Source: a virus. Taken from it: a stretch of DNA of 64,000 bases. A model generated the notes under the pieces. That model ran no database searches. It saw only the letters and a list, made by a program, of their open reading frames with translations, and was not told the origin of the DNA. How positions within the stretch are numbered: the stretch's first letter is position 1; each line of letters begins with the position of its first letter. The translations under genes were made by a program, and so were the position numbers. The DNA lies in the IMG/VR virus record IMGVR_UViG_3300045051_000720, positions 124,001 to 188,000 of that record; one strand, 5' to 3'. Positions 15,642 to 50,709 of the stretch are shown in pieces.

Positions 15642-18184
15642 CCGCCTTCACTAGCCAGTTCACCCCGCTCGCGTTCCCCCATTTCGGGATGGTCAAGCTA
15701 CCATCCATCACGATCACACCTGAGCAGAAGGCCTCGGTCGGTCTTCCTGCCACCGCGACCAATCAAGCGTTCCTGCTCGCCTTGGCGCGGGCGGGGTATA
15801 CCAAACGGGAGGCGGTCATCCCTGTTCAGCGACGTAAAGAATATGGTGATCGGGTTAAACGCGAGCTGGCGACGTTCGAGGAGCTTGGGTTCACGGACTA
15901 CGTGTTGCTGGTCTGGCTGGTCATCAACAAGGCGCGCGAGCTGGGGGTGTTCATAGATTACGGAAGAGGCTCGTGCGCTGGGAGTTGCGTTTTTTGGCTG
16001 CTTGGCATCACGGGCGTCGATCCCATTGCCAAGCGCCTCCTCTTCGAGCGGTTCGTCTCGCGCGTGCGCTCCAAGAAACAGGTCATCGACGGCGAGACCT
16101 ACCTCCAAGGCGACCTGATTGCCGACGCCGACCTCAACCTCGGCACCGGTCTTGACCAGATCGTGGCGTGGCTGGAGACCCTCTACCCCGGCGCGGTGTG
16201 TAAGATCGTGACCCACGGCACCCTCAAGGGCAAGGTGCTCATCAACGACGTGTACAAGACCATGGAGGGGGCCTCGCAGGAGGAGTCGCAGCGCATCTCG
16301 GGGATGGTCGAAACCAAGTACGGGGTGGTTGAGGATGTGGCAGACGCCTACGAGAAACACCCCGACTTCAAGCAGTGGGCCGACAAGCACAAGGAGACCT
16401 ACGAGGTATGCCTGCGCCTGCGTGATCTGATCCGCCAGAGCGGTGTGCACGCCAGCGGCTACGTACTCTCCGCGCGCCCCTTCGATGGCTTTCTCCCCAT
16501 CCAGCTGAGCAAGGACAAGGAGATCATCTCGTGCTACGAGATGGAGGACGTGTGCAACTACGCCGTCAAGCTGGACCTACTCGGACTCATCACCAACAAG
16601 GTCGTCAAGGAGGTGATCGACGCGACGGGGGTGGACATCACCACGCTTAATCTCGACTCCGACCCGTTCATCTACGACCGTTTTCAAGATGGCAAGCTGC
16701 TCCCGTGGGGGCTATATCAGATCTCGGCGGACTGCGCATATGGCGTGACTGCCGCCATCAAGCCCAAGAACATATTCGAGCTGAGCGACGTGAACGCTAT
16801 AGCCCGCCCGGGAGCCCTAGCGTACCTCTCGGGCTACGTCGAGAACAAGGCGCAGTGCCCGCACCCGGTCTTCGAGACCATCCTCAAGCCGACGCGCTTT
16901 TATTGCTTATATCAGGAACAAATGATGCATATGGCTGTGGCTGTGGGGTTTACATTGGATGAGGCCGAGATCCTGCGCAAGATCGTGGGCAAGAAGCAGG
17001 TCGAGAAGGTCAAGGAGTGGAAGGACAAGATCTACGCGCGCGTGGCGCAGAGCAACCTGCCCGCCAATCTGGGCGACATCCTGTGGAAGATCCTTGAGGA
17101 CAGCGCGTCGTACTCGTTCAATCTGTCGCACTCCCTCTCCACGAGCTACCTGACCGCCCTCACGGTCTACCTCAAGTACCGCTACCCGAAGGAGTTCATG
17201 TGCGCGTGCTTGAACGCCGCCAAGGACATTGATGAGCGTCGTCAGATCGGGCAGGAGCTGGGCCAGTTGGGTATCAAGATCCTCCCCGCCGACATCATCA
17301 AGTCGCGCCCGCGCTTCACCATCGAGGGCGATGGTATCCGCTATGGGTTGGAAGCGGTGCGCGGCGTCAAGAGTTATGCCGACAAGCTGGGGTCGTTCAA
17401 CCGCGTGTTCGAGTCCAAGTTCACCATCTTCGAGGTTGCCAAGGCGGCCAAGATCAACATCTCGGTCCTGACCTCGCTCATCTACGCGGGTTGCCTCGAC
17501 TCCATCATCTATGATGGCTCATCCCGCGCCAAGCTCGCGCTGGAGGCCCAGCTTTACAACCTCTTGACACCCAACGAGAAGGTGCTCGCCAAACGGTATG
17601 CCGACGAGTACAAAGACGACCTGCTCGCGCTGGTGAGGGGTATCGGCGAGAAGAAGAACGAGAAGGGCAAACCGCTGATCCAGCCATCGCGCATGACGAC
17701 GCTACGTCGGGACTACGCCCCGTGTTGGGAGCAGTACACTGCCAACGCCAAGAACGAGCTGCTCACGAGCTACGTGATGGAGCGCCACCTGTTGGGCTTC
17801 TCTTACTCCGCCACGCTCCATGGGTGCTATGCGTCGCGCATACCAACCCTCATCCCCCTCAAGGACATCGCCCAACACAAGGGCACCAAGGAGGTCTTCA
17901 AGTGCGTGGCTATCGTTGAAGAGGGGAAGGTACACATCAGCCAAAAAGGTGCGCCCTATTATCGGGCAGACGTGTTTGACGACGACACCAGTGCGCGCAT
18001 CATGCTGCATGGAGCAGAAAGAGTCGAGTCGTGCAAGGGGTATAACGGCGACCTCCCCAAGGCCGGTGACATCATCACCCTCACGGGCCAGCTATCCGCG
18101 GATGGCAAGATGATCTTCGCCGATAACATCGTCGTGCAGCCCGCGCTCGTCAAACTCAAGAAGACCGACGCCCCCGAGATATGA
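15638..18184 (+). CDS. dnaE: DNA polymerase III alpha, catalytic core (DnaE)
   Basis: 848 residues beginning where the PHP domain would end in a normal DnaE. It has the palm motif YGRGSCAGS near residue 109, the catalytic pair in IADADLN (Asp 163 and 165) and the third Asp in VKLDLLG (313). The fingers region has VNAIARPGALAYLSGYVE and the QEQMMHMA helix; the HhH-like segment includes AASLN-type SASYSFNLSHS. The C-terminal OB fold runs from about residue 745 (EVFKCVAIVEEGK). Bacterial DnaE is about 1,160 residues; together with the 259-residue PHP protein this accounts for a split alpha. No intein or clamp-binding motif was identified with confidence. Confidence 0.9.
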   Translation: MTAFTSQFTPLAFPHFGMVKLPSITITPEQKASVGLPATATNQAFLLALARAGYTKREAVIPVQRRKEYGDRVKRELATFEELGFTDYVLLVWLVINKARELGVFIDYGRGSCAGSCVFWLLGITGVDPIAKRLLFERFVSRVRSKKQVIDGETYLQGDLIADADLNLGTGLDQIVAWLETLYPGAVCKIVTHGTLKGKVLINDVYKTMEGASQEESQRISGMVETKYGVVEDVADAYEKHPDFKQWADKHKETYEVCLRLRDLIRQSGVHASGYVLSARPFDGFLPIQLSKDKEIISCYEMEDVCNYAVKLDLLGLITNKVVKEVIDATGVDITTLNLDSDPFIYDRFQDGKLLPWGLYQISADCAYGVTAAIKPKNIFELSDVNAIARPGALAYLSGYVENKAQCPHPVFETILKPTRFYCLYQEQMMHMAVAVGFTLDEAEILRKIVGKKQVEKVKEWKDKIYARVAQSNLPANLGDILWKILEDSASYSFNLSHSLSTSYLTALTVYLKYRYPKEFMCACLNAAKDIDERRQIGQELGQLGIKILPADIIKSRPRFTIEGDGIRYGLEAVRGVKSYADKLGSFNRVFESKFTIFEVAKAAKINISVLTSLIYAGCLDSIIYDGSSRAKLALEAQLYNLLTPNEKVLAKRYADEYKDDLLALVRGIGEKKNEKGKPLIQPSRMTTLRRDYAPCWEQYTANAKNELLTSYVMERHLLGFSYSATLHGCYASRIPTLIPLKDIAQHKGTKEVFKCVAIVEEGKVHISQKGAPYYRADVFDDDTSARIMLHGAERVESCKGYNGDLPKAGDIITLTGQLSADGKMIFADNIVVQPALVKLKKTDAPEI

Positions 18185-18528
18185 CCCGTCCCACCTTCGT
18201 CACCTGTCAAGACCGCCTCACCCAACTGGTCGCCGAGGACCAGCCCGAGGACTACCTCTTTGACGAGCAACCCATTCGGGTAGGCAACGCCAAGCTGACC
18301 TCCTTCCTCGTTCACTACACCACGCGCGGCGGCGCACCCCGCGAGGCGCGGCTGGTGTTCGGCGGCGATCAGAGGCTGCTCTTCGCCTTCGTCATCGACC
18401 CCGGGATGTGTGGCCACGCGCTAGAGGAAGGCTTCGACGCGCAGAAGGCGGACGAACTGGCCACATTGCGCGTGGACGGGTTGGACGCGGTTGTGGGGTA
18501 CCTGAAGGGACTTGACACGCGCGGCTAA
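18181..18528 (+). CDS. Hypothetical protein, 115 aa
   Basis: Coupled to the polymerase core by ATGA, so probably co-expressed with it. No motif recognised; a mixed alpha/beta pattern ending in LDAVVGYLKGL. Confidence 0.6.
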   Translation: MTRPTFVTCQDRLTQLVAEDQPEDYLFDEQPIRVGNAKLTSFLVHYTTRGGAPREARLVFGGDQRLLFAFVIDPGMCGHALEEGFDAQKADELATLRVDGLDAVVGYLKGLDTRG

Positions 18529-18546
18529 CGCGGCTATGATGAGCAC
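18512..18546 (+). promoter_or_regulatory. Leaderless promoter
   Basis: TTGACA at 18512 (inside the preceding gene), 17-bp spacer with GCTAAC, TATGAT at 18535, six bases to ATG 18547. Confidence 0.75.
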
Positions 18547-18822
18547 ATGACCTTCCATCATCCCGTGATCACTCCCGACGCCGACGAGGCGGATGAAAAG
18601 CATTGGCGGCGCACGGCTGTCGGTGAGCAGATCAAATCAGCGTGGCAGGCCTATATCCTGCTTCCCCAACCTCACTGGCGCATCAGTGCCTTCTACACCT
18701 CGGACCGTGAGGTCGTATCCGGGCGTACGTCTTACAGGGCACCAAACAGCCTCAAAGCATGGTGCTCGGTTCTGCCTGAGCTAACGCGCAAGTGGGTGCG
18801 GCGATGGAGGGGGTTGGCGTGA
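18547..18822 (+). CDS. Hypothetical protein, 91 aa
   Basis: First gene after its own promoter. Contains IKSAWQAYILLP and a basic C terminus (RKWVRRWRG). Unknown. Confidence 0.6.
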   Translation: MTFHHPVITPDADEADEKHWRRTAVGEQIKSAWQAYILLPQPHWRISAFYTSDREVVSGRTSYRAPNSLKAWCSVLPELTRKWVRRWRGLA

Positions 18823-19175
18823 AAAAGCGGGACATCGACACCCTTGTGGGGTATGCCATCCATGACTGGTGGCAGGTTGGTGACTACAGTCTATGTTTAC
18901 GTACCACCGGCCCGTCTGGCGGTGAGGCACATTGGGACATCCAGTTGGACGATGATGGTGGGGGCACCGGCAACGCCAGCCACGCTTATTTTGGCGACAT
19001 TCGTCTAAACGACCTGCTCGGTCACACCATCACCGCCGCGCGCCACGAGGACGAATCGTCCTATGGTGTGCTGTTGATCCTTGAGGCCGGCGATAAACGG
19101 GGGTGTATCCCCATCGTCCACGACCACAACGGGTACTATGGCTTCAGCTATGAGGTCGTGCCTTTCGTGCCATGA
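18819..19175 (+). CDS. Hypothetical protein, 118 aa
   Basis: GTG 18819 overlaps the previous TGA (GTGA). It reads VKKRDIDTLVGYAIHDWW and is beta-rich with Gly/Asp turns. Unknown. Confidence 0.6.
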   Translation: MKKRDIDTLVGYAIHDWWQVGDYSLCLRTTGPSGGEAHWDIQLDDDGGGTGNASHAYFGDIRLNDLLGHTITAARHEDESSYGVLLILEAGDKRGCIPIVHDHNGYYGFSYEVVPFVP

Positions 19176-19342
19176 AGCAGTACTGCATTGTCTATGACCT
19201 CGACGGCGAGGCTTATGTCATACCCGCCACCAAGCGCAAGGCATGGGACACCTTCTTGGCTATTCCTGTGGACGACGAGCGCAAGGTACCCAAGTGGGCC
19301 GAGCGCATAGATAGCCCACTCTCAATCACCTTGACACGATGA
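19172..19342 (+). CDS. Hypothetical protein, 56 aa
   Basis: Bridges its neighbours with ATGA overlaps at both ends, which supports it as a real gene. Begins MKQYCIVYDLDGEAYVIPA; unknown role. Confidence 0.6.
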   Translation: MKQYCIVYDLDGEAYVIPATKRKAWDTFLAIPVDDERKVPKWAERIDSPLSITLTR

Positions 19343-19713
19343 CTACCCACGAGTTCGCCCGTTCTCTCCTCGCGCTGCCTGACCTGCCGGTCTTCCATTT
19401 TGATCCCTCCCTCGCCGGGCTGGACGAGGAGATTGATCACTCACTCACCGAGCCCGTGGCCGAGGTGTGTCGCCCTGACCGCTGGGACAAGCGATGGAAG
19501 CCCTTCGTGACCATCAGCTCGGTCGAGGACCGTACGGAAGAGGCGGATGGCATCGACGCGATGCGCGACGACCGCCAGCGGCTCGATTGGGTGTTGGCCA
19601 TCCTCGCCACGCGCGGTACGGATGGGTTGAGAGACATCATCCCGTGGGAACCACCCTGCCCACCTGACCGCGATAGTCTCGACATCGCGATGGGGCGGTG
19701 TCCGACCCCCTAA
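19339..19713 (+). CDS. Hypothetical protein, paralogue of 39899-40120
   Basis: 124 residues. The N-terminal HEFARSLLALPDLPVFHFDP closely parallels [20 protein letters not shown] in the gene at 39899, so the phage has two members of this small family. The N-terminal half probably forms one conserved domain; the last 50 residues are specific to this copy. Confidence 0.65.
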   Translation: MTTHEFARSLLALPDLPVFHFDPSLAGLDEEIDHSLTEPVAEVCRPDRWDKRWKPFVTISSVEDRTEEADGIDAMRDDRQRLDWVLAILATRGTDGLRDIIPWEPPCPPDRDSLDIAMGRCPTP

Positions 19714-19976
19714 TGGCCGTCGTCGCCGACTTCATCTGCTCGGTGTGTCAGACCAAAAGGCACGAGCTGGTCGTGTGGGGCGAGTACGGCACGGTGTGTG
19801 CGGTCTGTCGGACTGAGCAGGTCAAGGCCGAGTCCTCCGCTAAACGCATGACCCTCAAGGGGTTGACGGCGTTGACGGTTGAGGAGAGGTTGGCGAGGCT
19901 AGAGGCGGAACTGTATGACCTCCCCGCGCTGCGGCGGCGAATCGAGGGTTTGGAAGCGGGTCAGGCTCGGTACTGA
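19713..19976 (+). CDS. Zinc-ribbon protein, 87 aa
   Basis: ATG 19713 overlaps the previous TAA. ICSVCQTKRHE and CAVCRTEQVK give two C-x2-C knuckles about 19 residues apart, followed by a helical coiled-coil-like tail (VEERLARLEAELYDL). Possible nucleic-acid or protein binder. Confidence 0.6.
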   Translation: MAVVADFICSVCQTKRHELVVWGEYGTVCAVCRTEQVKAESSAKRMTLKGLTALTVEERLARLEAELYDLPALRRRIEGLEAGQARY

Positions 19977-20093
19977 CGCATCACCCCATCGTGATGCGAC
20001 GATGGGTGTATATCCTCTTGGCCACGCGCTCTAGTAGGCGGCGGTGGAGTGTTACCGAGGCGGGAGACATCGAGCTACCGCCAAGTCTACCCC

Positions 20094-20099
20094 TATAAT
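20094..20099 (+). promoter_or_regulatory. Consensus -10 box TATAAT in non-coding region
   Basis: A perfect TATAAT with no good -35 box at the usual distance. It could start a transcript of roughly 550-690 nt ending in the hairpins at 20635-20745. Confidence 0.4.
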
Positions 20100-20634
20100 C
20101 CCCGCCGCGCTGGGTGTATAGTGGACGACGGACTAACACCCGCCGCGAGACACGTGTGTGATAACGCGATACTCGCTATGCCCAATCTCGATGCCGGAAG
20201 TCCCGGAGTGTCGGGCGCAGTTCGACGATGTTCGCAGCGCATATCAATAGACTGTCGGGGTAGCTCCCCTTCACCGCTCGCGACCAGACGGCTTGCTGAA
20301 AGGCAAGTGGCGTTCCTCGGATGACCCTCGCGCGGCTCTGACACGACTGACCTGTCCAGTGATGGATGGGCGAAACGGCTGGTTCGGGCAGTCCTGACTC
20401 GCGCATGGTCTAGTAGGTCGTCCCTGAAGCACCATGCTCACCTCGTCGCCCGGTTAACGGTCACGCTTGTCTTTCGTATCGGCAGGCAGCCACCGCACCC
20501 CAGTTGGGTTTCAAGCCCCTAGAGAGAGGTCGCTGGATGGAAAGGGCGATGTTGCGCCTCACGGTGCAGATGCTGCGGTAGATGTCGGCTAAACCGTTCC
20601 CCGGTCCCGCTTTGCTACGTTGGTCTCCTAGTCT

Positions 20635-20651
20635 CACCCCTTTTGGGGGTG
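20635..20651 (+). terminator. Hairpin, possible terminator
   Basis: CACCCC-TTTTG-GGGGTG, a perfect 6-bp stem, followed by GTGTCTTTT. It may end the transcript or be part of the structured RNA. Confidence 0.4.
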
Positions 20652-20692
20652 GTGTCTTTTCCGACCCTAGGACCCAATGTAGCCATCCAGCG

Positions 20693-20745
20693 CGCCCTTA
20701 CGGGCGAGCAGGGAAGAGGGCTTCCCGTTCAGGGTCTGCCGACCC
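20693..20745 (+). other. Three tandem perfect hairpins
   Basis: CGCCC-TTAC-GGGCG (20693-20706), GGGAAG-AGGG-CTTCCC (20711-20726) and GGGTC-TGCC-GACCC (20732-20745) follow one another with almost no spacer. This is strong evidence of selected RNA (or cruciform DNA) structure. Confidence 0.55.
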
Positions 20746-20800
20746 CTACCCAGCCCCTCAAACCCCAAAGCGGGAGGGTTAAGGCTAGGTGTGTCCACAC

Positions 20801-20836
20801 TTGACTCTCTCGGTCAACCCGCCTACCCTAGGGTCT
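20801..20836 (+). promoter_or_regulatory. Leaderless promoter/operator for DUF1643 gene
   Basis: TTGACT at 20801, 17-bp spacer, TACCCT at 20824, seven bases to ATG 20837. TTGAC-N7-GTCAA dyad is perfect. Confidence 0.75.
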
Positions 20837-21430
20837 ATGGCTAAGGCTCCCGAGACAAGCGTGTGCGTGTTCAGTGACGAGAACCCGCCGCGGTACCGAT
20901 ACCTCCTAGACCACACCGTCGATGACACGGTCCCGAGCTACGCTCGAAAAACGGTCATCTTTATTCTCGCCAACCCCTCGGTCGCCAATCAGACCCAGCT
21001 AGACCGCACTCTGCGCCGCGCGCGAGGCTTCACCAAACGGTTAGGGGGTCATCATATGGCCATCCTCAACGCCTTCGCTTTCGTCAGCCAAGACCCGGCG
21101 GGAATGCTCAACGCAGATGACCCGGTCGGCCCGCTCAACGACCAGATCATCGCCAAGACCATCGCGCGCGAGGGGGTCCTTCATGTCATCTGCGGGTGGG
21201 GTCATCTGGGTACGCACCGTGGGCGCGACAAGGAGCTGATGGCGATGCTGCCGGGGCAGCTGTCCTGTTTGGGGCTGACCAAGGGTGGACAGCCTCGACA
21301 CCCCCTCTATCTCAAGGCCGACGCTCCTCTCCTGCCCTTTGGGTACGTGGTCAATCCGAGCTTGACATCACCATCCAACTCCGGTACGGTGAGCGCATGT
21401 CCTCCTCCCCCGACCTCATCCTCTGGGTGA
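20837..21430 (+). CDS. DUF1643 family protein
   Basis: 197 residues with the DUF1643 signature in order: FILANPSVAN, LDRTLRRARGFTKRLG, ILNAFAFVSQDPAGM, DDPVGPLNDQ, ICGWGHLGTHRGRD and GLTKGGQPRHPLYL. The family is common in phages and bacteria and its activity is unknown. The last 25 residues are low-complexity (Ser/Pro/Thr) and overlap the next gene's promoter, so they may be dispensable. The ATG is fixed by the promoter spacing. Confidence 0.85.
   Translation: MAKAPETSVCVFSDENPPRYRYLLDHTVDDTVPSYARKTVIFILANPSVANQTQLDRTLRRARGFTKRLGGHHMAILNAFAFVSQDPAGMLNADDPVGPLNDQIIAKTIAREGVLHVICGWGHLGTHRGRDKELMAMLPGQLSCLGLTKGGQPRHPLYLKADAPLLPFGYVVNPSLTSPSNSGTVSACPPPPTSSSG
21362..21396 (+). promoter_or_regulatory. 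Leaderless promoter of the BCS1-like operon
   Basis: TTGACA at 21362 (inside the DUF1643 gene), 17-bp spacer with TCCAAC, TACGGT at 21385, six bases to ATG 21397. Confidence 0.7.
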
Positions 21431-21492
21431 TCGTGGCGGTGGTGGTGGCGATTGTCATCTTCATCATCGACCAGATGGACCCGTTCGAATGA
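21397..21492 (+). CDS. 31-aa single-pass membrane peptide
   Basis: MSSSPDLI followed by about 20 hydrophobic residues (LWVIVAVVVAIVIFII) and the acidic end DQMDPFE: one transmembrane helix. Its promoter spacing and the ATGA overlap with the AAA+ gene support translation. It may anchor or regulate the ATPase; that is inferred. Confidence 0.65.
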   Translation: MSSSPDLILWVIVAVVVAIVIFIIDQMDPFE

Positions 21493-23000
21493 TCCCTGAT
21501 CTATCTCTCACCTCATGGGCCGGCATCGCCGCCGCTGGTGCCTTCATCGCCTCGGGATGGCGCACCATCCTTGCGGGATGCCGATGGGTATCCGACCTCA
21601 TCATCTGCCGCGTGATGCTCAAGGACGACACCGCGCGCGCGGTGATGGCGTATGCGTGGTCGAAGGGCAAGCGCAACCCGTTTGGGCTGAGGATGTTTGG
21701 CGGGTTGACTACGTTCGTCGCGCCCAAGCGAAGGGTTGAGGTTGTGGGTTACGAGAGTGTGACCAGCGAACCGGTGCTTTTCTGGATGGGTCGCGTGCCC
21801 ATGCTCATCAGTTGGGGTATGACCTGCAAGGAGCACGATCGGCTCAACGTGGGCAATCAGATCGGTGGGCCGGCGATGCCTACCACCCTGCGGTTCCTTC
21901 GCGGCACGTTGAATGTCGAGACTTTTATCGAGGCGGCCATCACCGCCTACAACCAGAAGCGACAGATGACTGACGACGCAACGCGCCGTCCCAAGCGGTT
22001 CAACGTCATCCGCATGACCGGCCCGGTGCGGGGCGAACACGAGTTGTCGATGAAAGGGTCGGGCTCTGAGAGCCCCAATAGCATCAGTGGTACCGCTTCC
22101 GATTTCCTCATTCAACTCCAGCGCGGTGAGATGCGCACGTTGACGTGGAAGCCCGAGGATTTGGTCGAACTGGGGTCGAGCGAGAAGCCCTTCACGCATC
22201 ACCCGGTCGCCCCCGACATCATGGCGGCGTTCGATGACATCGGGGGATGGCTCAAGCACGAGAACTGGTTTCGCTCGCGGGGTGTGCCGTGGAGACGGGG
22301 ATTCCTGATCCACTCGCCGCCCGGCGCGGGAAAGGACACGTTGATTCGCAACCTCGCCATCCAGCACGACCTTCCCATCTACGCCTTCGACCTGTCCACC
22401 TACGACAACCGCTCGTTCCCCGATGCGTACCGTGCGGTGATGCAGAACGCGCCCGCCATCGCGCTAATCAGTGACATCGACGCCGTGTTCAAGGGGCGCG
22501 AGAACGTCGCGGTCAAGGACAAGCAGCGCGAGGGGTTGACCTTCGACTGTTTGCTCAATACCCTCAGCGGCATCACCACGTCGGAGGGGGTCCTCCTGTT
22601 CATCACGACCAATCACATCGAGAGCCTCGATCCTGCACTCGGCCAACCGCGCAATGGGGATCATAAGTCCACTCGGCCCGGCCGCATCGACAAGGTGATT
22701 GAGATGGGCGCGATGCAGGAGCGCGAGCGGCGCTTGTTGGCCCAGCATGTGCTGAGTGACTGGCCCGACCAGATTGAGCCCACTGTCGTGGCGGGCGAGG
22801 GCGAGATGGCTGCCCAGTTCCAAGAGCGGTGCGCGCAGGTCGCGCTCAAGGCGTATTGGGAGAGGGGGCTGACCAGCGAGGTTGTACCTGTGGCGGCACG
22901 AGCGGTTGATGAATCGGCGCGACGCGAGGACGATAGTAAATGGGCAGATGAACAGGCGTTGATGCGCGCGCGACGTTTTATGCAAGCGAAATCCTTATGA
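21489..23000 (+). CDS. BCS1-like AAA+ ATPase
   Basis: 503 residues. An N-terminal hydrophobic stretch (ISGxx-like region around residues 8-45, including WAGIAAAGAFIASGW) could be a membrane segment. After a BCS1-specific-like middle region, the AAA+ module has WRRGFLIHSPPGAGKDT (Walker A at about 275-284), AIALISDIDAVF (Walker B), LLNTLSGI, the sensor ITTNHIESLDPAL and the Arg-containing RPGRIDKVIEMG. This arrangement is that of BCS1-type AAA proteins, which remodel or translocate folded proteins. The client is unknown. Coupled to the membrane peptide upstream and to a small gene downstream by ATGA. Confidence 0.85.
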   Translation: MIPDLSLTSWAGIAAAGAFIASGWRTILAGCRWVSDLIICRVMLKDDTARAVMAYAWSKGKRNPFGLRMFGGLTTFVAPKRRVEVVGYESVTSEPVLFWMGRVPMLISWGMTCKEHDRLNVGNQIGGPAMPTTLRFLRGTLNVETFIEAAITAYNQKRQMTDDATRRPKRFNVIRMTGPVRGEHELSMKGSGSESPNSISGTASDFLIQLQRGEMRTLTWKPEDLVELGSSEKPFTHHPVAPDIMAAFDDIGGWLKHENWFRSRGVPWRRGFLIHSPPGAGKDTLIRNLAIQHDLPIYAFDLSTYDNRSFPDAYRAVMQNAPAIALISDIDAVFKGRENVAVKDKQREGLTFDCLLNTLSGITTSEGVLLFITTNHIESLDPALGQPRNGDHKSTRPGRIDKVIEMGAMQERERRLLAQHVLSDWPDQIEPTVVAGEGEMAAQFQERCAQVALKAYWERGLTSEVVPVAARAVDESARREDDSKWADEQALMRARRFMQAKSL

Positions 23001-25516: not shown

Positions 25517-25578
25517 AACTCCCTTCCCATATCCTCAAGCAGGTCAAGTGGTTCGAGCATGGCACTATCCTCATTTGA
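25513..25578 (+). pseudogene. 5' fragment of a small gene split by the tnpB element
   Basis: ATG 25513 overlaps the SLOG gene's TGA, so a coupled gene should begin here (MKLPSHILKQVKWFEHG). The frame runs into the insertion and stops after 21 codons. A remnant ending LLAQLKTQCPEQA lies beyond the element at about 26836-26917. Whether the two pieces were one frame or two adjacent minigenes depends on the exact element ends. Confidence 0.5.
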
Positions 25579-25640
25579 CGTGAGTCAAACGCTGACATTC
25601 CCGCTTCACAGGCCCCACAGTCGGGGCCTCCCCGGGCGTA
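25560..25640 (-). ncRNA. Predicted right-end omega-RNA scaffold of tnpB
   Basis: On the - strand the 3' end of tnpB carries GGCCCC-ACAGTC-GGGGCC (25611-25628), a perfect 6-bp stem. TnpB guide RNAs normally overlap the end of tnpB and finish at the right end, so the scaffold's last hairpin is expected here. The extent is approximate. Confidence 0.45.
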
Positions 25641-26835
25641 TCTTTCCGGCGTGCCTGCCGGTAGTTTTCGGCCAGCAAGCTGGTCGAAGAAGTGTCTTGC
25701 GTACGAAACGCCATAGCGCGGATATTCCGCGCGGCGTTGACATCACGGTCGTGGGTTATACCACAGACGCATGTCCAGTTTCGGTCGGCGAGAGTCAAAT
25801 CGCGCTTGATGTGACCGCATTCGGAGCACGTCTTGGACGACGGCTCGAAGCGACCTATCACGCGGACATTGACGCCATACCACCTAGCCTTGTACTCGAT
25901 CTGACGGCGCAGTTCGCGCCATCCTGCGTCCTGAATCGACCTGTTCAGGGCTCGCCCGCGACGAGATGTCGTGAGCATATCCGACACCGACAGATCCTCG
26001 ATGCACAGCGTGGTGGCGTGGCTCTTGCGCACCAGATAGCTGGACACCTTATGGAGGTTGTCGTTGCGGATGAAAGAGATACGTTCGTGGGTCAAGGCTA
26101 CACGTTGCCGCGCCTTGTTCCGATTCGCCGAGCCCTTGACCTTGCGCGACAGGCGGCGTTGTCGAATCTGAAGGCGGCGCAGGTACCGCTTCAACGCGCG
26201 CGGGTTCTCGAACCGTTGACCATCGCTCGTCACGATCAAATCCTTGAGACCAAAGTCAAGACCAAGAGCATGGTTCTCCTCGGCGAGTGGCGGCGTAGGC
26301 TCTGTCAACCCATCCTCAACCAAGATCGAGACGTAGATCTTGCCCGTTGCAACGCGCGAGACGGTGGTAGTCTTGATCTCACCGTCAAAACGGCGGTTGA
26401 AGCACCCCTTGAGGCCCTCACGGAAGCCGATCAGACTCACACGCTGAGTGCCGAAGTCAACTTTGGTCTTCTGAGGCAGCTGAAAGGAGTCATGTTGACC
26501 TTTGGCCTTGAAACGCGGGAACGAGGCTTGCCGATTGAAAAAACGCGTAAAGGCGGCATCAAGGTTGCGCAATGCCGATTGCAGAGCTGCCGCGGGTACC
26601 TCCTCCAACCACTGCGTTTCTTCTCTCTCTTTCAACTCGGGCAGATGTGCCTGAAGCTCGTAAAGCGATACACTCACCCCCGCCTCCATATATCGCGCCG
26701 TTTTCTCGGCGAGAGCCCAGTTGTAAATCCAGCGGACGCAACCAAACACCTTAGCCAGTTTAACTTGCTGGTCGGGGGTGGGGTAGATACGGTAGCGGTA
26801 TGCTTTGAGCACGCTACGCTATACACCGAGCGTAA
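25568..26835 (-). mobile_element. tnpB-only IS200/IS605-family element
   Basis: Left end marked by the hairpin TACGCT-ATACACCG-AGCGTA (26815-26834) just before the tnpB start; right end near the tnpB stop. Single-strand transposition of this family leaves no target duplication, and none is seen. Ends are estimated within about 10 bp. Confidence 0.65.
25571..26812 (-). CDS. tnpB: TnpB RNA-guided nuclease of an IS605-type element
   Basis: 413 residues, GTG start. N-terminal helix-turn-helix region (YRYRIYPTPDQQVKLAK), then a complete RuvC triad: Asp in LGLDFGLKD, Glu in CIEDLSVSD, Asp in HDRDVNAARNI. The zinc finger between them has CSECG and CVCG. It would cut DNA under an omega-RNA guide made from the element's right end. 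No TnpA transposase is present, so this is an IS1341-like, tnpB-only unit that needs help in trans. It lies opposite to the surrounding operon and interrupts a small gene. Confidence 0.93.
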   Translation of the reverse strand: MLKAYRYRIYPTPDQQVKLAKVFGCVRWIYNWALAEKTARYMEAGVSVSLYELQAHLPELKEREETQWLEEVPAAALQSALRNLDAAFTRFFNRQASFPRFKAKGQHDSFQLPQKTKVDFGTQRVSLIGFREGLKGCFNRRFDGEIKTTTVSRVATGKIYVSILVEDGLTEPTPPLAEENHALGLDFGLKDLIVTSDGQRFENPRALKRYLRRLQIRQRRLSRKVKGSANRNKARQRVALTHERISFIRNDNLHKVSSYLVRKSHATTLCIEDLSVSDMLTTSRRGRALNRSIQDAGWRELRRQIEYKARWYGVNVRVIGRFEPSSKTCSECGHIKRDLTLADRNWTCVCGITHDRDVNAARNIRAMAFRTQDTSSTSLLAENYRQARRKDTPGEAPTVGPVKRECQRLTHVK

Positions 26836-34303: not shown

Positions 34304-34339
34304 TTGACACTCTTGGTCAATCCTGCTATACTGTAACTG
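34304..34339 (+). promoter_or_regulatory. Leaderless promoter/operator for TnpB-like gene
   Basis: TTGACA at 34304, 17-bp spacer, TATACT at 34327, seven bases to TTG 34340. TTGAC-N7-GTCAA dyad is perfect. Confidence 0.75.
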
Positions 34340-36109
34340 TTGAAGACTCTCATCTACCGCTTCCGACTTGCTCCTAGCGTGCATCAATGTGCCATGATTG
34401 AGGCGAGTAACACACAACTGTGTCGGGTATGGAATGCTTTAGTAGGTGCCACCAAGCACGCCGAGCACGAATGCAAGCATGGACGCAAGACTTGCGTGGT
34501 CAAGCGATTAACTGATTTGCTGACCCAGAAGAAAGTCGTCGGGATGCGCGCGGCTGCCGTGAAAAAGCTGGCAGAATCCAAAGCAATATCATTAACGGAT
34601 GCCAACAATCTTCTCACCCGCGAGCAGGTCGCCCGTGAGAGTCGCACGATTGTGCGCAAGAATGGAACCAAAGCGCGACGGTGTTCTATTCGTAAGCTGG
34701 CGTTGGCCTATGCCATTGCTACGGTAGGTCATCAGATCAACCGCTTCGGAGTGGAATCCGCCGCGTTTTGGGGAGTGATTGAAAAATTCAAAACCTCTAC
34801 CGCCGACTATCCATTGGGCAAACGGGGTGCGCCCCGATTCAAACGAGTGGGTGATAACGTGTCCATGCAGGCTCAGACCAAGAATCAACACGTCAAGGAG
34901 GGGGTCGTTGACCTATCGCGTTTAGTCGGTTCTAGTTGTTCCTGTGTCCACATGATTCAACACCGCCCGATTCCAGACGGCGCGATTGTCAAGCAGATGG
35001 CCGTGGTTAAGCAAAATGACCGGCTGTTTGTGGCCATCTTTGTTGATGTGCCAGATGCGGCGGCGCAAAAGAGTTTAATGGCAGCTAGTGGAGCGACGGC
35101 TGGTATTGATCCCGGCCGTAAGACGGCAGTGTCGCTCAGTTCTACAGACGGAACAATCCAACAGGTTGTCTCGCCCCCACTCTTGCGGGACAAACGGTTC
35201 ATGCGTCGCACGGCGCGGTTGGCACGCAAGTTGGACAGGCAACGCCGCTTTGCCAATCCAGACCGCTACAATGAGGATGGCACCTTCAAGCGCGGAGCGC
35301 GCGGTGTGTGGGTGACAACCAAGGGAATGACTAAGACCCAAAAGCGTGCGAACGATTTGCGTCGCCGTCTTGTGGATGTACGCACAGAGCACTATCGTCT
35401 CAAAGCGCGCGAAGTGTTGAATCAGTTTGACCACGTTGGGATCGGTACATGGCGGCCCAAGGGTGCGCCGGGTGAAGGACAAGCCAAACGCGCACAGTTG
35501 CGCAAGGACGCAGATAACGCTTTGGGTCAATTCGCGGGTATCCTTCGGGACTATGCTGCGCGCAATGTGACCCCCAAGAAGATCTACGATATCAATGAGG
35601 TCAACACCACCCGTCGTTGCATCAATTGTGGCGAGATGACGGGGCCGAGTGGGTTGTCCAACCTTGGGGTGCGCGAGTGGACGTGTTCCCACTGTGGTGC
35701 CCACCATCAGAGAGACTTTGCTAGTGCGCGAGCTATCGCTCTGCGCACTCAAATCGTGGCCGATACGCATTTGGTTAACGATGGTCCAACGACCAAAATT
35801 CAGCCTGTTCGTTATGCCGCAAAGCGTAACAAACGAAGTGGGTTGGTGGCGACACCAATCAATGTGCCCGTGGAACAGGAAGCGGAGGCCGCGAGGTCCC
35901 GTCTGAGTAAAAACGGTGCTCGTGCGAGTGCCCCAGTGGTAGACCATCCGGCCGATTGCACTCGCGTGCGAAAAGCCAATGCTGACGAAGGCTCTAGCAA
36001 TATCCTCGCGTCAGAGCCAGCTACCAATGCCTGCAAAGGTAACCATCGCTCGCATAGTTGCGCCGTAGAACTTGAGTCCACGGTAGTTGTGGAGGAACAC
36101 TCACTATGA
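34340..36109 (+). CDS. Divergent TnpB/Fanzor-like protein with relocated RuvC glutamate
   Basis: 589 residues, TTG start fixed by promoter spacing. TnpB features: N-terminal KTLIYRFRLAPSVHQ, RuvC-I Asp in GIDPGRKTA (257), zinc finger CINCG and CSHCG, RuvC-III Asp in HQRDFASA (459). The RuvC-II strand reads HVGIGTWRP, with Gly or Thr where TnpB has Glu (about 369). A Glu is present 51 residues later in INEVNTTRRC (420), the place of the alternative glutamate reported for Fanzor and some TnpB clades, so the nuclease is probably active. Typical TnpB is about 400 residues; here there is an extended N-terminal part and a 120-residue tail. No TnpA. It is more AT-rich than neighbours yet carries a phage-type promoter. 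Confidence 0.75.
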   Translation: MKTLIYRFRLAPSVHQCAMIEASNTQLCRVWNALVGATKHAEHECKHGRKTCVVKRLTDLLTQKKVVGMRAAAVKKLAESKAISLTDANNLLTREQVARESRTIVRKNGTKARRCSIRKLALAYAIATVGHQINRFGVESAAFWGVIEKFKTSTADYPLGKRGAPRFKRVGDNVSMQAQTKNQHVKEGVVDLSRLVGSSCSCVHMIQHRPIPDGAIVKQMAVVKQNDRLFVAIFVDVPDAAAQKSLMAASGATAGIDPGRKTAVSLSSTDGTIQQVVSPPLLRDKRFMRRTARLARKLDRQRRFANPDRYNEDGTFKRGARGVWVTTKGMTKTQKRANDLRRRLVDVRTEHYRLKAREVLNQFDHVGIGTWRPKGAPGEGQAKRAQLRKDADNALGQFAGILRDYAARNVTPKKIYDINEVNTTRRCINCGEMTGPSGLSNLGVREWTCSHCGAHHQRDFASARAIALRTQIVADTHLVNDGPTTKIQPVRYAAKRNKRSGLVATPINVPVEQEAEAARSRLSKNGARASAPVVDHPADCTRVRKANADEGSSNILASEPATNACKGNHRSHSCAVELESTVVVEEHSL

Positions 36110-50144: not shown

Positions 50145-50164
50145 CACTAGGCATCGTTTGGCAA

Positions 50165-50583
50165 CACTTAAAGGCGGGGCTTGGCAGGGCTGGGCACGGC
50201 GGGGCACGGTTAGGCAAGTGTAAGGCAAGGAACGCGGTTCGGTATGGCAACGCGGGGCGACGCCGGGTTTGGCCGGGCGTGGCCGGGCGCGGCGAGGTTG
50301 GGTTAGGCATGGAACATGGTGTGGTGAGGCTGGGTATGGCGGGGCATGAGTAGGGCGAGGAACATGGTAGGGCAAGGCTGGGCGCGGCTGAGCAGGGTCA
50401 GGTCCGGTACGGCTAGGCTCGGTTAGGCAAGGTCCGGGGCAGCGCGAGGTGTGGCACGGCTTGGCTGGGCAACGCACGGCCGGGTCCGGCGAGGCAAGGA
50501 ACGAGGTGAGGTGGGGCAGGGCAGCGCGCGGCGTGGTCAGGCAGGGCTTGGCAGGGCAACGCAAGGTCCGAGGCGCGACGGTC
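50165..50583 (+). repeat. Degenerate five-base-periodic G-rich repeat
   Basis: About 420 bp built from GG(C/T)NN units (GGGCT, TGGCA, CGGCG, AGGCA and so on) in almost unbroken 5-base register with a few shifts. The + strand is extremely G-rich and C-poor. Reading frames through it give low-complexity Gly/Ala/Arg/His peptides and are not genes. Possible roles: replication origin, G-quadruplex-forming block, or packaging/recombination site. It is the only strongly repetitive tract in the window. Confidence 0.8.
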
Positions 50584-50602
50584 TATCCGCGCACAATTTC
50601 TC

Positions 50603-50709
50603 TTGACAGTAGGCTCTAACATCACTACCTTCACATTATCTCCAATAGGCACCTACGCTCAGACAATCACGTCAACGAGCATCACTCGTGACCGAACGAG
50701 ACAACGCAC
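50603..50709 (+). promoter_or_regulatory. Promoter with a ~70-nt 5' leader
   Basis: TTGACA at 50603, 17-bp spacer with TCTAAC, TACCTT at 50626. Unlike the others, the start codon is 78 bases further on. The leader has the hairpin ACGAG-CATCA-CTCGT and ends with CCGAACGAGACAAC before ATG 50710. Confidence 0.6.

Follow-up and report, generated by a model that had tools for sequence, protein, structure and literature searches.

A candidate noncoding transcription unit with its own phage promoter in a coding-free gap downstream of dnaE in a large uncultured phage

The coding-free gap and its neighbourhood

The window analysed here is a stretch of 64,000 bases (124001-188000) from a 219,464-base virus record (G000), and it encodes a DnaE-type polymerase, exonucleases, a DnaB-like helicase, a primase and RtcB, with a J-like tail-tip protein encoded outside it, elsewhere in the same 219-kb record. 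The closest large relatives in IMG/VR are G001 (205 kb), in which the AAA protein and the tail protein share 50% and 48% identity with those of this phage, and G007 (191 kb); we found no complete relative in IMG/VR that is nearer than these two. Within the replication module, 1.8 kb downstream of dnaE and at 144 kb of the whole genome, a gap with a GC content of 61% separates a 92-aa gene from the gene of a DUF1643 protein, in a neighbourhood that also includes an AAA protein and small proteins (Table 1). The 92-aa product has no Pfam hit, and its PHROG matches are weak only (E about 0.1). With the same gene caller applied across the genome, the gap is the longest coding-free stretch in the window, and genome-wide it is exceeded only by the tRNA island and by a stretch at 208.9-210.9 kb.

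The original prediction held that this region contains no convincing gene, and our analyses bear this out. Under a codon-usage model trained on the long genes of the phage, all ORFs of the gap score about zero or below (at most 0.7), and the best frame of 150-nt slices of the gap is always negative, as against +9 to +26 for slices of dnaE. Six-frame translations of the gap match no Pfam domain, such that neither codon usage nor family homology places the gap among protein-coding sequences, and a decayed gene is ruled out by the same lack of a Pfam match and of a coding frame.

Two TnpB/Cas12f-like genes are also found in the window, at 25571-26812 (-) and 34340-36109 (+), the second of which is a long variant of 589 aa, with TNB as the sole domain matched and a 46% homologue in G007.

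Table 1 Features of the gap, its flanking genes and the two promoter classes (window coordinates unless G000 is given)
Feature	Position	Strand	Evidence or remark
92-aa gene, last before the gap	19698..19976	+	ORF with positive codon score; no confident family
Coding-free gap, stop of 92-aa gene to start of DUF1643 gene	19977..20836	+	860 bases; codon scores, slices, six-frame Pfam
First GGGTGTATA, promoter-core-like 9-mer	20004..20012	+	Without ATAA element at standard spacing
Class-2 phage promoter, CTATAATCC-N12-GTGTATAG	20093..20123	+	Exact spacing; held-out PWM score
Predicted noncoding transcript	20128..20686	+	Start predicted from promoter; end predicted at the junction or slightly beyond
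Three-way junction, 75 nt	20612..20686	+	MFE -35.1 kcal/mol; z -5.7; 0/200 shuffles as stable
Terminator-like hairpin (20634-20652) with T-rich tail (TGTCTTTTCC)	20634..20664	+	Nested within the junction
Three consecutive short stem-loops, GCCC-TTAC-GGGC, GGGAAG-AGGG-CTTCCC, GGGTC-TGCC-GACCC	20692..20745 (about)	+	Sequence
Class-1 promoter of DUF1643, TTGACT-N6-GGTCAAC-N5-TACCCT	20801..20829	+	Leaderless; PWM 30.1
DUF1643 protein gene, 197 aa, first after the gap	20837..21430	+	PF07799, E 1.4e-29
Class-1 promoter examples	2047, 6975, 14921, 18512, 20801, 21362, 26914, 53463	+	Consensus pattern
Class-2 sites	G000: 13785, 20400, 24570, 25066, 25783, 28721	+	Promoter pattern
Class-2 sites	G000: 47369, 62679, 77665, 121233, 128617	-	Promoter pattern

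Two classes of phage promoter

Near its upstream end the gap carries a near-consensus member of a promoter class (class 2) with the consensus ATAAWCC-N12-GTGTATAG, which occurs at about 12 places in the genome, the head of the tRNA island included. The ATAA and GTGTATA elements are spaced at exactly 19 nt in 9 of 10 genomic pairs; GTGTATA is over-represented in the genome, with 39 copies where about 13 would be expected, as is GGGTGTATA, with 16 copies for an expectation of about 1.2. Sites of the form GGTGTATA are intergenic in 18 of 26 cases (random positions, 14%), and in 17 of the 26 a gene on the same strand starts within 120 bases downstream (random positions, 10%). When scored with a matrix that was built without it, the site in the gap reaches 30.7 bits, compared with a maximum of 16.9 among 10 simulated genomes, and it belongs, with exact spacing, to the class-2 transcription units. 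Three class-2 sites of identical form and spacing exist in the closest relative contig, G002. Within the genome of this phage the sites are concentrated at 13-63 kb, the region of the J-like tail-tip gene, and one precedes the tRNA island. Given this location, mainly near the tail-protein region and at the head of the tRNA island, class 2 is possibly a late promoter.

A perfect TATAAT at 20094, to which attention had previously been drawn, is indeed present (20094-20099; one of 18 copies of this hexamer in the 219-kb genome), yet as a -10 box it was misread: the absence of a -35 element at proper spacing rules out a sigma-70 promoter, and the hexamer belongs to the upstream element of the class-2 promoter. 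The first copy of GGGTGTATA in the gap may represent a weaker tandem promoter.

The DUF1643 gene is served by a promoter of a different, phage-wide leaderless class (class 1), with the consensus TTGACa-N5-7-gTCAAC-N5-TANNNT, of which there are about 19 in the window, 5-7 nt ahead of the start codon, and 20 regex sites in the relative G007. The DUF1643 promoter has a PWM score of 30.1, where noise in the window does not exceed 11.8. Since this promoter is separate and leaderless, the gap is not the leader of DUF1643, and its interpretation as a 5' UTR of that gene is ruled out. Two class-1 promoters, at 34304 (+) and 50603 (+) of the window, lack a start codon at the distance typical of the class, the latter lying inside a 565-base coding-free gap (50145-50709) that is another candidate noncoding transcript.

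Folding of the gap and its 3' three-way junction

Dense local hairpins had been described for this region, a claim that folding statistics do not bear out: sliding folding z on the + strand averages -0.2 in the gap versus -0.3 outside it, and the body of the gap (20128-20600) is less stable than its shuffles (z +2.1). The whole 854 nt reaches z -2.0 (20 shuffles only), and positions 20600-20760 reach z -2.75. The lowest z value comes from a three-way junction at 20612-20686, formed by a 10-bp outer stem (GCTACGTTGG/CCAATGTAGC), a 6-bp stem (TCCTAG/CTAGGA) and two inner hairpins, with helix probabilities of 0.98-0.99, for which a G-T wobble favours the + strand. In a scan of the entire window, z falls below -5 in 0.12% of 76-nt segments, so one such value is expected with roughly 5% probability among the ~45 segments of the gap; the junction is consequently notable, though picked after the fact. 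When 720 kb of the phage group were searched with a covariance model of the junction, the junction itself was the sole match, and ten additional records gave none.

The terminator-like hairpin of the original prediction is present, inside this stronger junction. The three back-to-back stem-loops also exist, but their stability is ordinary, with a combined energy of z -0.97 that 32 of 200 shuffles equal. Long-range pairings of 8-10 bp were discarded as evidence of structure, being expected by chance in 860 nt. Of the large structured RNA that had been envisaged, the proposal of a noncoding transcript stands, with its own promoter and a separate promoter for DUF1643, whereas its ornate character does not: only the 3' 75-140 nt are unusually stable, which leaves a giant ornate RNA without support.

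Searches for relatives of the gap

Rfam returned no match to the gap at the gathering threshold, and chance-like matches only at E<=5. The models for GOLLD, ROOL, HEARO and RNase P, advocated earlier as a check, were among those run, and none of them matches; additionally, no IscB of the HEARO type is encoded among the neighbours (DUF1643, AAA and small proteins). As regards RNase P RNA, Rfam also misses an RNase P-like RNA of the tRNA islands described below. Because this RNA, common to the islands of G000 and G001, goes undetected, Rfam appears insensitive to the RNAs of this phage group, and its negative result is weak here.

No homologue of the gap was found among phages (E up to 10), plasmids, viral contigs, bacterial genomes, the genome of the phage itself, G001, G007 or 13 partial relatives, in DNA similarity searches that returned short matches at most and in viral and bacterial collections scanned by exact pattern. 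A 19-mer shared with the contig G009 lies in an unrelated part of that contig and was judged to be a chance match. With flanking proteins as anchors, DUF1643, a 124-aa protein and DnaE identify no relative among viral contigs, the AAA protein identifies G001 only (50%), and the tail protein identifies G001, G007 and fragments.

Synteny with tRNA islands

In both G001 and G007 only a few genes separate dnaE from a tRNA island downstream of it, in the place where this phage has the gap; its own island is located at 71.5-77.6 kb. In G001 dnaE occupies 151.0-153.8 kb and the tRNAs begin at 156.6 kb, and in G007 dnaE lies at 55.2-58.3 kb (minus) and the tRNAs at 45.9-52.3 kb (minus). ARAGORN finds 0 tRNAs in the gap. 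We also built a covariance model (R1) from 25 tRNAs of the phage group. It recovers dozens of divergent tRNAs in three islands, where scores are 15-70 bits, but reaches at best 6.5 bits in the gap, and a decayed tRNA array is rejected on this ground. Two origins of the gap are plausible, an island-associated RNA that has been kept or a remnant left by decay; the strength of the promoter speaks for the first, and the absence of any trace in sequence or structure keeps the second in play.

The best surviving alternative to a functional transcript, which we nevertheless consider unlikely, takes up the second of these options: the ancestor had its tRNA island downstream of dnaE, and the island then moved to 71-78 kb, leaving a spacer whose surviving promoter drives nothing useful. 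This would agree with the position of the islands in G001 and G007 and with a body that folds no better than shuffles, but R1 detects no tRNA in the supposed remnant, the promoter remains near-consensus, and big useless gaps are rare in this genome.

The islands (L020:10500-17600 (-); L013:16600-20000 with L014:1-7700 (+); L115:5800-12300 (-)) contain many divergent tRNAs that ARAGORN misses, with atypical T loops (e.g. GCAGCAC) and CCA-CATTTT spacers, and G000 and G001 share one 77-nt tRNA stretch at 97% identity. The islands of these two phages also have in common a non-tRNA RNA of 305-342 nt, identified with nhmmer and missed by Rfam (L020:13146-13450 (-) in G000; L014:460-801 (+) in G001). 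Its stretches GAGGAAGTTCGC... and ...GAGAAATGAACGTC...ACAGAAGGGCGGCTATCGCG resemble the P4 core of bacterial RNase P RNA, and this island RNA is possibly a divergent phage-encoded RNase P RNA.

A proposed noncoding transcription unit

On balance, we consider that the gap is probably a noncoding transcription unit in its own right, driven by a phage promoter dedicated to it, a reading drawn from sequence statistics: the gap lacks a coding signal, its promoter belongs to class 2, the downstream gene has a separate promoter, and the 3' element is stable. The class-2 promoter would start a transcript near 20128, as the distance to start codons in other members of the class suggests, and this RNA would span 0.55-0.7 kb and code nothing, with the stable junction terminating or protecting it, and DUF1643 would be read separately from its own leaderless promoter. 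Expression would be late, alongside structural and tRNA genes, and the product may act in trans as an RNA, for example by binding host or phage RNA or protein. Given its largely unfolded body, a binding or antisense RNA would fit better than a rigid ornate particle.

Several observations run counter to a noncoding RNA, namely that the body folds worse than shuffles, that homologues were not found in the searched collections, and that a 56-aa ORF (GTG 20154 to 20324) begins 30 nt past the promoter box. The last of these raises an alternative in which the class-2 promoter drives a short-peptide gene of 48-56 aa (from GTG 20154 or ATG 20178 to 20324) with a long untranslated tail. The distance from the box would suit such a gene, most other class-2 genes starting 4-49 nt past theirs, but the codon score of the ORF is -18, where the median of small genes is positive, a longer ORF in the same frame has no family match, ORFs of such length are expected by chance at 60% GC, and 480 nt would be left unexplained; we regard a peptide gene as improbable.

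Equally improbable, in our estimation, is a replication origin or terminus at which a transcript from the promoter primes or marks replication. The gap does lie downstream of dnaE in the replication module, and around the position of the locus, at about 140-147 kb (window 16000-23000), the cumulative skews of GC and of TA each change direction with gene strand unchanged, which hints at a replication boundary. However, an AT-rich unwinding region is absent, there are no iterons, and the skew plateau is broad and could reflect gene content. A divergent GOLLD or ROOL cage-forming RNA, in spite of a suitable size, a phage location and synteny with the tRNA islands of relatives, is highly improbable given that Rfam is blank even at E<=5, that the body shows no excess folding and that no tRNAs adjoin it in this genome.

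If the proposed noncoding unit is transcribed, an orphan large noncoding RNA would join the few described from large phages, and its promoter class would tie it to the tRNA island and structural-region genes, providing a testable prediction of timing. More tentatively, it may represent a new class of large noncoding RNA, specific to this phage lineage, which would combine a dedicated promoter of the class found at the tRNA island and at genes of the structural region, a stable 3' three-way junction and a function unlike those of described phage RNAs. The promoter class also helps to annotate this uncultured phage group and to locate other RNA genes.

Comparison with known systems

Genes for GOLLD and ROOL are frequently located close to tRNA islands, and GOLLD levels increase in the course of lysis (PMC12286853). 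The gap resembles GOLLD in its length of about 800 nt, in being phage-encoded and noncoding, and in its correspondence to the tRNA-island position of relatives; it differs from GOLLD (RF01998) in having no Rfam match, no nearby tRNA, and excess folding only in the 3' 75-140 nt. GOLLD is further marked by an ornate structure with covariation support and a conserved 3' half, a comparison for which the searches yielded no homologue of the gap. Adjacency to a tRNA island, which is usual for GOLLD though not strictly defining, is not seen here, the island lying at 71.5-77.6 kb and the locus at 144 kb, although the locus is syntenic with the islands of relatives. With ROOL the gap shares the character of a large phage-encoded noncoding RNA of similar length (the transcript here being predicted from sequence), but it has neither an Rfam match nor a demonstrable elaborate structure. 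The tRNA islands of large phages (G000, G001 and G007) offer a further parallel, through the same promoter class in this phage and the position downstream of dnaE in its relatives, with the difference that the phage-group model detects no tRNA, intact or degraded, in the gap.

Phage regulatory RNAs from orphan promoters form a general kind of RNA with its own promoter, no ORF and a stable 3' hairpin. Although the predicted RNA is longer than most of these, and has no known target or relative, the gap shares all three of their features.
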